Shown here: piece after piece, positions 16,338 to 33,006 of the stretch
Layout: each line of letters starts with the position of its first letter
How positions within the stretch are numbered: position 1 is the stretch's first letter
Assembly: GCA_038746285.1 (NCBI GenBank)
Contig: JBCDKT010000015.1
Span: 1 to 64,000, forward strand
From: Bacteroidota bacterium
GTDB lineage: Bacteria > Bacteroidota > Rhodothermia > Rhodothermales > JANQRZ01
Reading direction: 5' to 3'
DNA: 64,000 bases
Made by a program: the position numbers and the translations under genes
Notes under the pieces: generated by a model
What the model was told of the DNA's origin: nothing
Database searches by the model: none
What the model saw: only the letters and a program-made list of their open reading frames with translations

Positions 16338-16670
16338 TCAGTCCAGAATCAGGAAGGCCGCCTCCCGGTCGTCGGCGAACCGCTCGATGATCGGGCGACG
16401 GATGCGGAGCAGCTCTGCGACGCGCGTCGTCGGAGCGTTGCCGACGCGCAGCCACACGACCTTCGGTGGGGAGCCGTAGAGAATACTCCGCTGGTAGAAG
16501 TCGGTGTCCTTCGAGACTAGGAGAAACCCCTCGTCGGCAGCGTGTGTCCAGATGCGGGCATCGTCCGCGCCGAGTAATCCGATCTCCCGAACGTGGGCAG
16601 AACCCGGATAGGCTTCCGCGAGCGTCTGCGGGAGACGGAACGACAGGTTCTCGTCAAACAGCAGCCTCAC
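16338..16670 (-). CDS. DUF5615 PIN-like toxin-type protein
   Basis: A 110-residue protein of the PIN-like DUF5615 family, whose members pair with DUF433 proteins and are thought to be toxin components with nuclease folds. Seen: LLFDENLS at residues 3-10 with the acidic residue expected at the PIN-like site, HVREIGLLGADDARIW, and KDTDF near residue 54 with a second acidic cluster. Its ATG overlaps the stop of the DUF433 gene by four bases, so they form an operon. It converges on ppc with two bases between stops. Toxicity is inferred from family context only. Confidence 0.82.
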   Translation of the reverse strand: MRLLFDENLSFRLPQTLAEAYPGSAHVREIGLLGADDARIWTHAADEGFLLVSKDTDFYQRSILYGSPPKVVWLRVGNAPTTRVAELLRIRRPIIERFADDREAAFLILD

Positions 16671-16885
16671 GCTGCGAAGAGCCGGCGTTCACGCTCAGCG
16701 GCAAAGGCGAGGGCGGCGCGGATGTCCTCCGCCGACAGGTCCGGGAAGTCGCTTAGAATTTCCTCCGGCGTCATTCCCCCAGCGAGGTATTCAAGCACGT
16801 CCGAGACGGTGATGCGCGTACCTCGGATCGTAGGTTTCCCACTGCGAATAGCCGGGTCGAGCGTAATGCGGTCCTGAGCGTCCAT
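16667..16885 (-). CDS. DUF433 antitoxin-type protein
   Basis: A 72-residue small helix-turn-helix-like DUF433 protein. It shows the family core: DPAIRSGKPTIRGTRITVSD followed by LEYLAGGMTPEEILSDFPDLS. It probably neutralises the downstream DUF5615 partner and may bind the operon promoter. The ATG at 16885 (MDAQDRITLDP) is chosen because upstream in-frame sequence consists of non-family residues and reads through the duplicated ppc end on the opposite strand. It heads a two-gene operon with a four-base overlap. Confidence 0.85.
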   Translation of the reverse strand: MDAQDRITLDPAIRSGKPTIRGTRITVSDVLEYLAGGMTPEEILSDFPDLSAEDIRAALAFAAERERRLFAA

Positions 16886-16946
16886 GATTCCGCTGAGAGT
16901 GCAGATCCGGGTACGTCCGCTTCCGGTGAGCGTTCCTTCGTCCAGT

Positions 16947-16979
16947 GGCCTCGCCGCCGCGATGCAGGGCACGGACTAG
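16947..16979 (+). repeat. Direct repeat R2: duplicate of the ppc 3' end
   Basis: This is a 33-base copy of 16303-16335 with three mismatches and the same in-frame TAG. It is detached from any ppc reading frame and lies 61 bases upstream of the DUF433 start. The interval R1 to R2 is 644 bp, the likely size of an integrated cassette. Confidence 0.85.
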
Positions 16980-22064: not shown

Positions 22065-22169
22065 ATCAAAGCGAACACATAGGTTGCGCTAGGCGGCGTG
22101 TTTGCTTAGTCTTGCGGGACGGGCCACCGCGCCTCCTTCCTTCCCTCCACCGACTCACCCAGAACCGTG

Positions 22170-24491
22170 ATGCATGTTTGCCGACGCGGCTTGTTCGCCG
22201 CCCTTGCCTGTCTCCTGTTCCTCGCTGCTCCCACCGCCGACGCGCAGCGCGCCGACGCCCGCGTGCCGAGCGAGCTCATCGTCCGCCTCGCCCCCGAGGC
22301 TGACATCACCGACCTGACGGCGGCCGCCCGGCTCTCCGGCGAAGGGCTCGTCGCCAAGCGGCTCCTCGTCCCGGCGCTGGGCATCTGGCTCGTCGAGTTC
22401 AACGAGGTCGGGCGCGACGACCTCGCGGCCCGTGCCACGCTCGACGCCGTGCGCCGCACGGCGGCGGTCCAGGTAGCGCAGTTCAACCACGAAGTGACGC
22501 TCCGCAGCACCGAGCCGGACGACAGCCGCTTCGGCGACATGTGGGGCCTCCACAACACCGGCCAGAGCGGCGGCACGCCCGACGCTGACATCGACGCGCC
22601 CGAGGCGTGGGACTACCTCTCCGGCGGCGTCTCCGCCCAGGGCGACCGCGTGGCAGTTGGGATCGTGGATAGCGGGTTCGACCTGGACCACCCCGACATG
22701 GACTACTGGACCAACACGGCCGAGACCCCGAACAACGGCATCGACGACGACGGCAACGGCTACGTCGACGACGTGAACGGCTGGAACGCCTACAGCAGCA
22801 GCGGCAACGTCACCAACTCGTTCCACGGCTCGCACGTCTCCGGGACGGCGGCGGGCAACGGCGGCAACGGCATCGGCATCACCGGCGTCAACTGGGACGC
22901 ACAGGCCGTCGCCATCCAGGGCTCCTCGGGCAACGAGTCGACGGTCGTCGAGGCCTACGGCTACGCGCTCGCGCTGCGCCAGCAGTACGACGCCACCGGC
23001 GGCGCTGAGGGCGCGTTCATCGTCTCGACCAACTCGTCCTTCGGCGTCGACTTCGCCGACCCGGACGACTTTCCGATCTGGTGCGGGTTCTACGACGATC
23101 TTGGCCAGGCCGGCATCCTCTCGATGGGGGCGACCATGAACCGCAACGCCGACGTGGACCAGACGGGCGACGTCCCGACGGCCTGCCCGAGCAACTACCT
23201 GGTCTCGGTGACCAACACCACACGCACTGACGACAAGAATAGCGGCGCGGCCTTCGGTCTGACGACGATCGACCTCGGCGCGCCGGGCACCTCCATCCTC
23301 TCGATCAACAGCAGCGGCGGCTACAGCAACGCCACCGGCACCTCGATGGCGACGCCGCACGTCGCCGGTGCCGCGGCGTTCCTCGTCTCGGGCATGAGCG
23401 GGGCCCGCCTGCAGGAGTACAAGGACAACCCCGGCGCGGTCGCGCTCGACGTCAAGCGCGCCCTGCTGCTCGGCACCGACGACATCGGCCTCGAGACCGT
23501 CAGCGGGGGGCGCCTGAACCTGCTCGGCAGCCTCCTCGAGAGCTTCGAGGACGACGACCGCAGCGACGTGATCGCCGCCAGCACGACGATCGCGGACCTC
23601 GCCCTCGACGGCGAGTACCTCTACGTCCCGGACGGCGTCACGCTCACGCTCACCGGCTCGCTCACGCTCGGTGCCGACGCCGACGGCAACCCGTCGCGCC
23701 TGGTTGTGCGCGGCACCGTGCAGGGCACCGTCAGCCAGTCCATCACCGGAGGCAGCGAGATCGTCCTGCGCCCAGGCGGCCAAAACCTGATCGACGGCAC
23801 CGGTGCCGGCAGCATCGACCTGACGGCGAGCGCGACGACCTCCACGACCGTCGCCCCCGGCGGCTCGGTCTCGTTCGCGTTCTCGGTCACCAACTCGACC
23901 CCGGCCGGGTACGCGGGCGACTTTTACTACACCGCCATGCCGGGCTCGGCCTCGGGTCTCATCCGGTCCGGTACCTTGCCCTCGGGCGCTACGGTGAGCG
24001 GCACGTACACGCAGATCGTACCTGCCTCCACACCGCCCGGCATCTACACCTACACGCTCTCGGTCGGTCAGATGACGGGCTCGTTCCTGGCGCGGGCTGT
24101 GGTCGAGGACTCGGAGAGCTTCACGATCACGGTGACGGGCTCCGCCATCGGCGACGCCCCCGCGTGGCTGGCGAAGGACATCGCGGTGGAGGAAGAGGAT
24201 GCAGCGGCGAGCCGCAGCGCGACGGTCCCGGCAGAGCTGGGCCTGGCAGCCTACCCGAACCCGTTCGCGGGCTCTACGATGATCCAGGTCGACCTCGCCG
24301 CCTCGGCTGAGGTACAGCTCGTCGTCTACGACGTGCTCGGGCGCGAAGTGGCCCGCCTCGCCAGCGGCACGATGGACGCCGGGCAGCACACGGTCGTCTT
24401 CAACGGACGCGACCTCCCGAGCGGCTCCTACGTGGTCCGCGTGACTGCCGGCGGCTCGGTCCAGACGCAGCGGATCACGCTCCTGCGCTAG
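22170..24491 (+). CDS. Secreted subtilisin-like S8 peptidase with type IX CTD
   Basis: The 773-residue serine endopeptidase has a signal peptide (LFLAAPTADAQ), a propeptide-like region (about 30-110), and a subtilase domain with Asp167 (IVDSGFDLDHPD), His219 (FHGSHVSGT), oxyanion Asn288 (STNSSFG) and nucleophile Ser392 (GTSMATPHVAG). A beta-rich region follows, then a sorting domain (PNPFAGSTMIQV...YDVLGREVARL) to the end. It is therefore probably exported, activated and surface-anchored or released by a type IX system. A GTG one codon earlier (22167) is an alternative start. A 14-bp hairpin follows the stop. Confidence 0.93.
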   Translation: MHVCRRGLFAALACLLFLAAPTADAQRADARVPSELIVRLAPEADITDLTAAARLSGEGLVAKRLLVPALGIWLVEFNEVGRDDLAARATLDAVRRTAAVQVAQFNHEVTLRSTEPDDSRFGDMWGLHNTGQSGGTPDADIDAPEAWDYLSGGVSAQGDRVAVGIVDSGFDLDHPDMDYWTNTAETPNNGIDDDGNGYVDDVNGWNAYSSSGNVTNSFHGSHVSGTAAGNGGNGIGITGVNWDAQAVAIQGSSGNESTVVEAYGYALALRQQYDATGGAEGAFIVSTNSSFGVDFADPDDFPIWCGFYDDLGQAGILSMGATMNRNADVDQTGDVPTACPSNYLVSVTNTTRTDDKNSGAAFGLTTIDLGAPGTSILSINSSGGYSNATGTSMATPHVAGAAAFLVSGMSGARLQEYKDNPGAVALDVKRALLLGTDDIGLETVSGGRLNLLGSLLESFEDDDRSDVIAASTTIADLALDGEYLYVPDGVTLTLTGSLTLGADADGNPSRLVVRGTVQGTVSQSITGGSEIVLRPGGQNLIDGTGAGSIDLTASATTSTTVAPGGSVSFAFSVTNSTPAGYAGDFYYTAMPGSASGLIRSGTLPSGATVSGTYTQIVPASTPPGIYTYTLSVGQMTGSFLARAVVEDSESFTITVTGSAIGDAPAWLAKDIAVEEEDAAASRSATVPAELGLAAYPNPFAGSTMIQVDLAASAEVQLVVYDVLGREVARLASGTMDAGQHTVVFNGRDLPSGSYVVRVTAGGSVQTQRITLLR

Positions 24492-29003: not shown

Positions 29004-30545
29004 ATGCGACTGGTTACCGCTTTTTTCCTGCTTACGCTCTGCGCCGGCTCCCTCGTCGCCCAGCCTTGCGACCCGGCTGCCACGGAGGAAGCCTGCGCCG
29101 ACACCACCGACTGGAAGCGCTACTTCCCCCTCGAGGTCGGCAACGTCTGGCACTACTACGAGGACCTCACCGAGGAGCCGGAGAACCGCTGGAGCTGGTC
29201 GATCACCGGCGAGGCCGAGGCGGGCGGCGAGACCTACGTTTCGCTCGAACGCTGCGACGACAACGCCGCCGGGGCTGCCGTCTGCGAAGCACCCGTGCTG
29301 CTCCGCTACGACGACGAGCACGACATGATCGTCCGCCGCACCGAGAGCGGCGACGTGTGGTGGCGCCAGCTCCCATGCCTACTCAGCGCCGACTTTAACG
29401 TGGGCTACGCGTGTACCGGCCCGGGTACCGGGGACGTGGCGTTCAGCTCGGTCTTCGGCGCATACGGAGCAACGAGGCCCGTGCCGCCCGATGTCCTGTC
29501 CGGCGATACGGAGAAGGACTTCGTCAAATTCCCCGGCACAGGCGCGGTGCTGTACGCGGGCCTCGGGGCGACCGCCTTCCCCATCGAACTACAGGGCAAC
29601 GCACCGAAACTCGTGTATGCCCATGTCGGCGGCGAGCAGGTCGGCACGCCCGCCTTCGCCTCGTGCGACCCGACCGACCTGGAAGACGACGAAGTCTGCC
29701 CCGACACGACCGACTGGCGGCGCTACTTCCCGCTTGAAGTCGGCAACCAGTGGCAGTACGAGTACGAGGGATTCTGCAACGGTGTCTTCACGTGCAAGAC
29801 TGGCCAAGAGGTCGTCGGCACGGAACGCATCGAGGGCGTCGACTACTTCCTGATCCGCTCCTGCGAAGTTGACGACGGTACCAGCGAGGTCTCCTGTTCC
29901 GACCCGGTCCCCCGGCGCTACGCCGAGGAGGGCGACCCGGTGGACGATCCGCGCCTCATCACGCCTTGCCTGTTCGACCTTCCGTTCAACTTCCAGGACG
30001 AAGTAGCGTGTTCAGAGGTACCAGAGGCCGCCTGGTTCACGTCGGGGCGCTACGGCAGCACGTTCGGTCTTGACGAAGGGCCAAGCCTTCAAGGCACGGT
30101 GAAGGAGATAGGCAACATCGGGGCGTTCGCGACCTACTTCGCAGGCATCGGGCAGACCCGCTACCTAGGCGATGGAAATCTGTTCGGGACGAATTTAGTC
30201 TACGCCCAAATCGGTGGGGTCGAATACGGCACTCCTGCTTTCGCCTTCCCGACTTCCGGCGAGGGCGAGGCTGCGCCGCTGGCCTCCGGCTTCACCTCGC
30301 TCTTCCCGAATCCGTCCAGCAGGACGGCGACCGCTCGCTACACGCTCGGCGCGGCGCAGGTGGTGACGCTGGAGGTCGTTGACCTCCTCGGGCGGCGCGT
30401 CCACACGGTCGAGGCCGGGCCGCAGACTGCCGGTGCGCACGAGGTCGCGGTCGAGACGCAGGACCTGCCGGCGGGCGTGTACCTGCTCCGGCTGCGCGGC
30501 GGCGAGGGCGTGCTGGCCGTGCAGCGCCTGTCGGTCGTGCGCTGA
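29004..30545 (+). CDS. Secreted two-repeat protein with type IX CTD, function unknown
   Basis: The 513-residue protein has a signal peptide (CAGSLVAQ) and two homologous halves, each opening with TDW(K/R)RYFPLEVGN(V/Q)W (near residues 35 and 235) and running to PKLVYAHVGG or TNLVYAQIGG followed by GTPAFA. Cysteine pairs recur in both halves, suggesting disulfides. Residues about 430-513 are a sorting domain (PNPSSRTATARYTL...LPAGVYLLRLRG), so surface delivery is inferred. I do not recognise an enzymatic motif. The internal duplication looks like a modular adhesive or binding protein. Confidence 0.75.
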   Translation: MRLVTAFFLLTLCAGSLVAQPCDPAATEEACADTTDWKRYFPLEVGNVWHYYEDLTEEPENRWSWSITGEAEAGGETYVSLERCDDNAAGAAVCEAPVLLRYDDEHDMIVRRTESGDVWWRQLPCLLSADFNVGYACTGPGTGDVAFSSVFGAYGATRPVPPDVLSGDTEKDFVKFPGTGAVLYAGLGATAFPIELQGNAPKLVYAHVGGEQVGTPAFASCDPTDLEDDEVCPDTTDWRRYFPLEVGNQWQYEYEGFCNGVFTCKTGQEVVGTERIEGVDYFLIRSCEVDDGTSEVSCSDPVPRRYAEEGDPVDDPRLITPCLFDLPFNFQDEVACSEVPEAAWFTSGRYGSTFGLDEGPSLQGTVKEIGNIGAFATYFAGIGQTRYLGDGNLFGTNLVYAQIGGVEYGTPAFAFPTSGEGEAAPLASGFTSLFPNPSSRTATARYTLGAAQVVTLEVVDLLGRRVHTVEAGPQTAGAHEVAVETQDLPAGVYLLRLRGGEGVLAVQRLSVVR

Positions 30546-31177: not shown

Positions 31178-31189
31178 GCCCGCTACCGG
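31171..31189. terminator. Shared hairpin over two convergent stop codons
   Basis: CCGGTAG (31171-31177), loop GCCCG, CTACCGG (31183-31189). The TAG of the DoxX gene and the CTA (TAG) of the opposite gene occupy symmetric positions in the stem. Terminator function is inferred. Confidence 0.35.
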
Positions 31190-32139
31190 GCAAGCGTCAC
31201 GCGGCGGGTCTCGGCGAAGCCTTCGCCGGTGGCGCGCACGACGTACACCCCGGCAGGCAGCGCGCTGGCGTGGAAGGTGAAATGATGCTCCGCCGCCGCG
31301 AGCGGCCCGTCGTGGAGCGTAGCGACCTCGCGCCCGAGGAGGTCGAAGACCGCCACCGTCGCCCGGCCGTCGGATGAAACCGTCAGCGCGAACGAGGTCG
31401 AGGTCGCAAACGGGTTCGGGTAGGCGGCTTCGAGGACCGGCGACGCGGATGCTGTCGCCGCATCGGCCGTCAAGATGGGGTCCGAAGGTATTGGTTGGCT
31501 ATTGCCGTTAGGGTAACCGTTGGGGTAAATAGTGTAGTTCGGTTCGAGTGCGTCGAAGCGCGGATCATCCTCATAGGTAGCGATGGCGTCTCCGAGCGTC
31601 GTCCCTGATATCTCGACGAGGTAGCTGTAGAAGTTCTCTTCAACGACGCGTGCGTTCAGCGCTTGTCCCACGTCCCGCACGTCGGCAAGCGTGACCCCAT
31701 CGGCGAGGAAGACGTCCAACTGGCCGCCGAGGTAGCGACGGGCGAGGAACGACGCCTCAGCCGGGACTAGCTCCATGTTCCAGCCGAAATAGGCGCGGAT
31801 GGTCTGCCGCCCCGTCGTCTCCGGCACGCCGTGGACGTTCGGCGCGATCTCCCACACCCAGGTCCGCGACGCGTTCGGCGCGAACGTGAAAGGAAGTTCA
31901 GCCGCGGCGCACTGCTGAATTCCGGGCAGCGGCCCGTAGTCGATGTTGGCCGGGATATTTGGGCACCCAATGACGAACGTGATCGGCTCGTCGGTCGTGT
32001 TGGTGATCGTGTAGCGGAACGTGATGGTCTCGCCGTAGCGGTAGGCCCTCCGGTCCGTCTCGGCGGAGGATACGAGGCCGTCCTGCGCAAAGGCAGGGGC
32101 GACGAGGGTGAGAAGTAAGAGCAGGAGCAGAGCACGCAT
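31183..32139 (-). CDS. Secreted BsuPI-like/subtilisin-propeptide-like protein with type IX CTD
   Basis: The 318-residue protein has a signal peptide (TLVAPAFAQ). Residues 26-125 resemble the BsuPI intracellular-proteinase-inhibitor fold (RAYRYGETITFRYTITNTTD, later TWVWE and TIRAYF). Residues 138-206 resemble the inhibitor propeptide of subtilases: LNARVVEENFYSYLVEISGT then YEDDPRFDALEPNYTIYP, with the typical EPNY ending. Residues 237-318 are a sorting domain. No protease domain follows, so it may be a secreted inhibitor or chaperone of subtilases such as the one at 22170. That role is inference. It could instead be the remnant of a larger protease. Confidence 0.75.
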   Translation of the reverse strand: MRALLLLLLLTLVAPAFAQDGLVSSAETDRRAYRYGETITFRYTITNTTDEPITFVIGCPNIPANIDYGPLPGIQQCAAAELPFTFAPNASRTWVWEIAPNVHGVPETTGRQTIRAYFGWNMELVPAEASFLARRYLGGQLDVFLADGVTLADVRDVGQALNARVVEENFYSYLVEISGTTLGDAIATYEDDPRFDALEPNYTIYPNGYPNGNSQPIPSDPILTADAATASASPVLEAAYPNPFATSTSFALTVSSDGRATVAVFDLLGREVATLHDGPLAAAEHHFTFHASALPAGVYVVRATGEGFAETRRVTLAR

Positions 32140-32217: not shown

Positions 32218-33006
32218 TTAGCTGCCAAGTCCGCGCAGCGCCTCCAAGAAGGCCGCGGGCCCGATCCCGCTCGCGCCGGTGCGGAGGCGGAGCGTGCAGA
32301 AGAGGTCGATCAGGAGCATCTGCACGGCGTGGAGCGGGACGGCGATCCAGAAGCTCCGGCACCGCCACACGAGCGCGCCGAGGGCGAGACCGCCGAGGAT
32401 CGAGAGGTACGCCTCGGCCGCCGGCTTGCCCACGTGGAGGATCGCAAACGGCACCGTCTGCACGACGACCGCGAGGTAGCCGAACGCCGGGGCCGTCCCG
32501 AAGAGCACGAACCCCCGCCACAGGTACTCCCACCCGATCCAGTAGAAGATGTAGAGCAGCTCGTAGAGCACGAACGTCTGCCAGTCCGCCGACGCGGTGC
32601 GGAGGTGCGGGTAGGTCGACTGAAACGCCGGGTCCGCCGAGAGCACCCACGTCCCGAGCGCGACGACCGGCACGTAGAGCCCGCCGATCAGCGACGCCAG
32701 CCGCCAGTCGCCCAGCCCGAGGCCGATCTCGGACGGCTTCCGCTTGAAGAAGACCACCAAGAGGGCGACGGGAACGACGAAGCCAAGCACGCCCTGCGTC
32801 ACGAACCGCCACGCCCACGACCCCAGCCCCAGGTGCTCCGGCGCGACCGTCTCAGCAAAGGTCTCGCGGAAGAACCCCCGGCTCCCGATCTGCGAGTGCA
32901 GGATCACGAGCGCCGCTGCCGCGACGAGCACGACGGCCGCCTGCCGGTCGATCCCGGCCACCTGCTCGCGGAGCAGCGCCCATTCCTGTTTCAGTCGGTC
33001 ACGCAT
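32218..33006 (-). CDS. CPBP-family intramembrane metalloprotease-like protein
   Basis: A 262-residue polytopic protein (about seven hydrophobic segments) of the CPBP/Abi-like family. The glutamate-arginine motif appears as WEYLWRGFVLF near residue 160, the first histidine motif as FAILHVGKP near 190, and the second as PLHAVQM near 225. The first motif carries EYLWR where EExxR is common, so one acidic residue is replaced. Family members process membrane proteins; the substrate is unknown. Upstream is a GGACGGTG repeat tract. Confidence 0.82.
   Translation of the reverse strand: MRDRLKQEWALLREQVAGIDRQAAVVLVAAAALVILHSQIGSRGFFRETFAETVAPEHLGLGSWAWRFVTQGVLGFVVPVALLVVFFKRKPSEIGLGLGDWRLASLIGGLYVPVVALGTWVLSADPAFQSTYPHLRTASADWQTFVLYELLYIFYWIGWEYLWRGFVLFGTAPAFGYLAVVVQTVPFAILHVGKPAAEAYLSILGGLALGALVWRCRSFWIAVPLHAVQMLLIDLFCTLRLRTGASGIGPAAFLEALRGLGS

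Follow-up and report, generated by a model that had tools for sequence, protein, structure and literature searches.

Propeptide-like domains that lack a protease are a recognised route to subtilase inhibition or external chaperoning, examples being POIA1, the yeast proteinase B inhibitor, SPI-1, TgMIC5 and SUB1-ProM (PMC6993865), and ORF2 of Aeromonas is a propeptide-like external chaperone (PMC5638518). The founder of the BsuPI family inhibits Isp1, and BsuPI homologues in general are not encoded near subtilisin genes (PMC3901451). The intracellular proteinase inhibitor (IPI) was dropped from MEROPS because an inhibitor and a competing substrate could not be distinguished (PMC3901451). Bacteria with type IX secretion export many proteases whose extracellular control is poorly understood. 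A conserved family in which two inhibitor-type folds share an exported scaffold would be a ready candidate for such control.

The open reading frame at 31183-32139 of the window (the 64,000-nucleotide stretch of Bacteroidota DNA that was analysed) lies on the minus strand, starts with an ATG at 32139 and encodes a 318-aa protein. Its layout is a signal peptide, domain A, domain B, a short linker and a type IX sorting domain:

32083..32139, minus strand: Sec signal peptide, residues 1-19, MRALLLLLLLTLVAPAFAQ, with an AxA cleavage site (AFA^Q), judged by eye
31759..32082, minus strand: domain A, residues 20-127, a BsuPI/IPI-like Ig-type beta-sandwich with cysteines at 59 and 77 and W-x-W at 94-96
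31516..31758, minus strand: domain B, residues 128-208, subtilase-propeptide-like (hhalign, AF2, Foldseek)
31444..31515, minus strand: variable linker, residues 209-232, unconserved in the homologue alignment
31186..31443, minus strand: type IX secretion C-terminal sorting domain (CTD), residues 233-318 (TIGR04183)

This anatomy and the homology of both core domains are well supported. Both segments recognised in a preliminary description of this DNA were recovered, with borders at 20-127 and 128-208 in place of 26-125 and 138-206. Homologues carry a comparable leader, which in one of them contains a lipobox. The T9SS type A sorting domain (residues 240-314) scored 37.0 bits with TIGR04183, above the cut-off of 23, and 25.7 bits with PF18962, where the cut-off is 27; the earlier assignment of a type IX CTD was upheld. 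No peptidase model of Pfam or NCBIfam matched the protein, in agreement with the protease domain having been described as absent. The genome of the window encodes about 150 matching CTDs and a single copy of the A+B part. A search of plasmids matched the sorting domain alone, with neither A nor B, and a whole-protein search of the PDB with the product returned nothing useful.

Domain B was compared with known subtilase (S8) propeptides at the level of profile and fold. The best Pfam family for this domain is PF22148 (Fervidolysin prodomain), which was reached by 3 of 25 members (best E 6.7e-4) and scored 14.6-14.8 bits on the 31183-32139 protein alone, below its cut-off of 21. A profile of 25 homologues aligned with 11 genuine S8 propeptides of the phylum by hhalign with a probability of 93.3, E 2.6e-7 and a score of 39.8, the best score from 100 column shuffles being 16.9. 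When 395 genomes were searched, the B-only matches below E 1e-3 (loci L074 and L076) were S8 proteases, and the match sat at the propeptide, immediately before the catalytic domain. The domain B profile matched no PDB sequence. The AF2 model has a core pLDDT of about 90, and Foldseek ranked the PCSK9 prodomain, pro-subtilisin E, the 1SCJ propeptide and POIA1 first to fourth, all non-significantly (E about 0.02, best 0.018). Matches in VIA include fervidolysin (Z 6.5, 22% identity) and ORF2 (3wqb_B, Z 6.1), with Z values of 6-7 that do not exceed those of other ferredoxin-like folds. Homology of domain B to S8 propeptides is a firm assignment carried by the sequence profile, and the predicted fold supports it.

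Domain A relates to BsuPI in a similar manner. PF12690 (BsuPI) gave 12.7 bits on the protein alone (curated cut-off 22.9), and among the 25 members it was weakly reached by 9, while Arrestin_C was reached by 19. The comparison set consisted of seven phylum sequences retrieved with PF12690; against these BsuPI proteins the profile of 25 homologues gave an hhalign probability of 95.7, E 9.4e-9 and a score of 50.0, and the best score from 60 column shuffles was 15.4. A Cys-Gln ... Cys pattern is common to members of the A+B family and BsuPI-type lipoproteins of the phylum. AF2 predicted a beta-sandwich with pLDDT near 70 in its better parts. Generic Ig domains dominated a fold search with the A+B model, and the absence of 3ISY (IPI) from the matches listed is uninformative. 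Profile comparison firmly assigns domain A as a homologue of the BsuPI family. In the AF2 model it is an Ig-type sandwich, and because it also resembles arrestin C domains, the name BsuPI denotes a family resemblance and not proof of inhibition. Both segment assignments of the preliminary description hold at profile level, both far above shuffles though sub-threshold in Pfam for the single sequence, and the structure predictions it had proposed gave folds that fit, a beta-sandwich for A and a propeptide-like fold for B.

The A+B family extends through the phylum. We read 28 A+B proteins from several classes, and named records place the family in Rhodothermales and other Bacteroidota. It is carried by 16 of the 114 genomes of the order; in the phylum search 29 of 395 genomes matched at least in part, the match spanning A and B completely in 18 of these, and a related-loci search in a closer genome set found four loci. 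Layouts vary: one member (L019) is a lipoprotein without a sorting domain, and three loci (L068-L070) encode domain A and a CTD without B. In genome G022, tandem A+B genes (L045, 126-1157 and 1619-2662) have nearly identical sorting domains and divergent cores. Close to the lipoprotein A+B gene, another lipoprotein gene (L048, 7406-8185) has a product that begins like BsuPI and whose second half contains several cysteines and belongs to no identified family.

Among three close relatives, dN/dS lay at 0.08-0.09 in domain A and 0.12-0.19 in domain B, rough ratios since dS is near saturation, and on these values both domains are under purifying selection. The kinship of domain B with S8 propeptides could also be read as that of a functionless remnant of a subtilase that has lost its catalytic domain. 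The same layout in 28 proteins of several classes, with open frames and dN/dS well below 1, makes this reading very improbable, and we rejected a chance or remnant origin on the conservation and the low dN/dS. No Pfam or NCBIfam model covers A, B and the sorting domain together, and a search of the open-access literature found no paper describing this layout, consistent with the earlier statement that no such three-part family has been described. The protein is a new combination of known parts with a predicted function.

Residues 199-202 of the protein read EPNY, the motif with which the propeptide-like segment had been said to end. The motif is present and is particular to this protein: 19 of 25 relatives have an acidic residue where it has Glu, and PNY is unconserved. 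E199 and N201 fall at helix-capping positions (E69 and D71 of BPN'), as does the equivalent E146/N148 pair of SUB1-ProM (PMC6993865); the second position is unconserved in the 25 relatives. About two thirds of members have an Arg 3-4 residues after the acidic position. The tail of B, whose residues would be expected to reach into the active site of a protease, is unconserved among relatives, and B is followed by the linker and sorting domain, leaving no free C-terminal inhibitory tail.

Conservation within B is highest at its junction with A (A6, G11 and G12 of B), not at the protease-contact positions. This pattern argues for a co-opted binding module, in which an Ig-like exported protein acquired a propeptide domain for a non-protease role such as adhesion, scaffolding or assembly with the YFPLEVGNxW protein described below; an A-P-x-Y-x-G-G hinge would lock A and B into one structural unit. 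Proteins with domain A and a CTD without B are also consistent with such a capture. However, the acidic capping residue is largely kept, and most known protease-less propeptide-like proteins inhibit or chaperone subtilases (PMC6993865, PMC5638518).

We also looked for subtilases that the protein might act on. The subtilase at 22167-24491 of the window (earlier given as 22170) had been proposed as a dedicated partner. This link was not supported: the enzyme has its own propeptide and lies 6.7 kb from the A+B gene on the opposite strand, and no S8 gene was found near homologues elsewhere, the 24 loci scanned having none within about 6 kb of the A+B gene. The missing neighbours are weak evidence against a subtilase role, because BsuPI homologues in general are not found near subtilisin genes (PMC3901451). 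The genome of the window has eight S8 matches. All 50 genomes compared contain S8 genes, whether or not they carry the A+B family, so co-occurrence is uninformative, and the mean number of matches per genome is about 6.8 with the family and 5.9 without. The broader proposal of a dedicated subtilase inhibitor or chaperone is partly supported: the fitting folds and the kept E/N pair speak for it, and the lack of an S8 gene within about 6 kb, the own propeptide of the subtilase in the window, the ubiquity of subtilases and the unconserved tail count against it.

A chaperone that acts externally on a propeptide-less subtilase, as ORF2 does for ASP in Aeromonas, is improbable here. In its favour, domain B matches ORF2 structurally (Z 6.1), and an S8 lipoprotein of the window's genome (L084) has no recognisable propeptide by eye. 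Against this, S8 matches of similar length also occur in genomes without the A+B family and look common in the phylum; ORF2 is encoded beside its protease (PMC5638518), whereas no A+B gene in the 24 loci scanned lies beside an S8 gene; and ORF2 acts via a C-terminal tail that domain B does not have.

Genetically, A+B is linked to the YFPLEVGNxW domain and not to proteases. The two neighbouring genes of interest in the window are:

29004..30545, plus strand: YFPLEVGNxW gene, with two domain copies (29100-29651 and 29703-30236) and a T9SS CTD
32218..33006, minus strand: CPBP/Rce1-like membrane protein, the upstream neighbour (PF02517, 31.9 bits)

Neither Pfam nor the PDB gave a credible match to the YFPLEVGNxW domain. 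A gene with this or a related domain neighbours the A+B gene in three loci (the window, L048 and L139), and in L139 the two are co-directional and about 60 bases apart. Two fusion architectures exist, YFPLEVGNxW-A-B-CTD in L020 and L150 and A-B-YFPLEVGNxW-CTD in L060. In a sister species (G001, locus L153), TsaD, DoxX, CPBP and DHOD are present and abutting, and the A+B and YFPLEVGNxW genes, which flank DoxX in the window, are both missing. Three adjacencies in 23 loci would arise by chance with a probability of about 1e-5 to 0.005, given 1-10 domain copies per genome, a figure that is indicative only because the same copies had served to build the YFPLEVGNxW profile. Adjacency, fusion and shared absence favour the co-opted module, but order-wide co-occurrence with A+B is weak (7/16 vs 15/98 genomes, Fisher p 0.014; the profile is biased towards its seed). 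In G002 and G032, which represent two other genera, the CPBP/Rce1-like gene is again found in synteny with DHOD and the A+B gene; this is probably shared synteny, and the gene is not clearly part of the system. Elsewhere in the window, two small adjoining ORFs at 16341-16972 resemble, by eye, a PIN-like/DUF433 toxin-antitoxin pair.

We consider a subtilase-directed surface regulator to be the single most likely function of the A+B protein, with a probability of roughly 0.43, and a co-opted non-protease binding role follows close behind. The regulator is suggested by the assigned homology of B to S8 propeptides and of A to BsuPI, both folds coming from subtilase-binding families, by the retention of E199/N201, by the occurrence of A and B together in 28 proteins and by the eight S8 matches in the genome. 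The absence of an S8 neighbour, the variable tail and second capping position with an Arg 3-4 residues after the acidic position in many members, the position of B away from the C-terminus, S8 numbers that hardly differ with and without the family, the removal of IPI from MEROPS and the arrestin-like character of A all argue against it.

The protein is a type IX cargo whose conserved core combines a BsuPI-type Ig domain with a propeptide-homologous domain freed from any protease. As a regulator, it may be held at the cell surface or released from it. A+B could bind a subtilase in trans, not necessarily the one at 22167, with the propeptide-like sheet covering the protease surface helices as propeptides do. 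Such binding would restrain or stabilise secreted or surface subtilases, and the BsuPI-like domain might strengthen or position the contact. The YFPLEVGNxW protein encoded nearby would probably be its partner in this surface process. That the family as a whole constitutes phylum-wide, type IX-exported bivalent subtilase regulators, with BsuPI and propeptide folds in one protein and a YFPLEVGNxW partner controlling surface proteolysis, is unlikely. In the A+B family, a bacterial subtilase propeptide domain exists separately from its protease; if the function of the family differs from regulation, it would clearly illustrate how such a domain can be put to new use as a binding module.

Several described systems share parts of this architecture. 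Like ORF2, the external chaperone of the Aeromonas sobria serine protease, the protein is bacterial and propeptide-like; ORF2 acts in trans on an S8 enzyme and is without Ig and sorting domains, and unlike ORF2, A+B is not encoded beside an S8 protease in the 24 loci scanned. The N-terminal prodomain of fervidolysin (PF22148) is the best Pfam family and a VIA match for domain B; it is part of a subtilase precursor, whereas the 31183-32139 protein has no catalytic domain and falls below the PF22148 cut-off. Stand-alone I9-type proteins (POIA1, yeast proteinase B inhibitor and SPI-1 of MEROPS I9; TgMIC5 and SUB1-ProM) share with domain B a propeptide fold, predicted in the case of B, the lack of a protease and the first, acidic helix-capping position, and POIA1 was Foldseek rank 4. 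The named I9-type inhibitors are eukaryotic and small, with the inhibitory tail at the end, whereas domain B is flanked by an Ig domain on one side and a type IX sorting domain on the other and is a candidate inhibitor only. BsuPI/IPI (PF12690, formerly MEROPS I22, the Bacillus subtilis intracellular proteinase inhibitor) is homologous to domain A by profile. The combination with a propeptide-like domain and a T9SS CTD is absent from the BsuPI architectures named in PMC3901451; unlike BsuPI/IPI, domain A scores below the Pfam cut-off and is joined to both of these.
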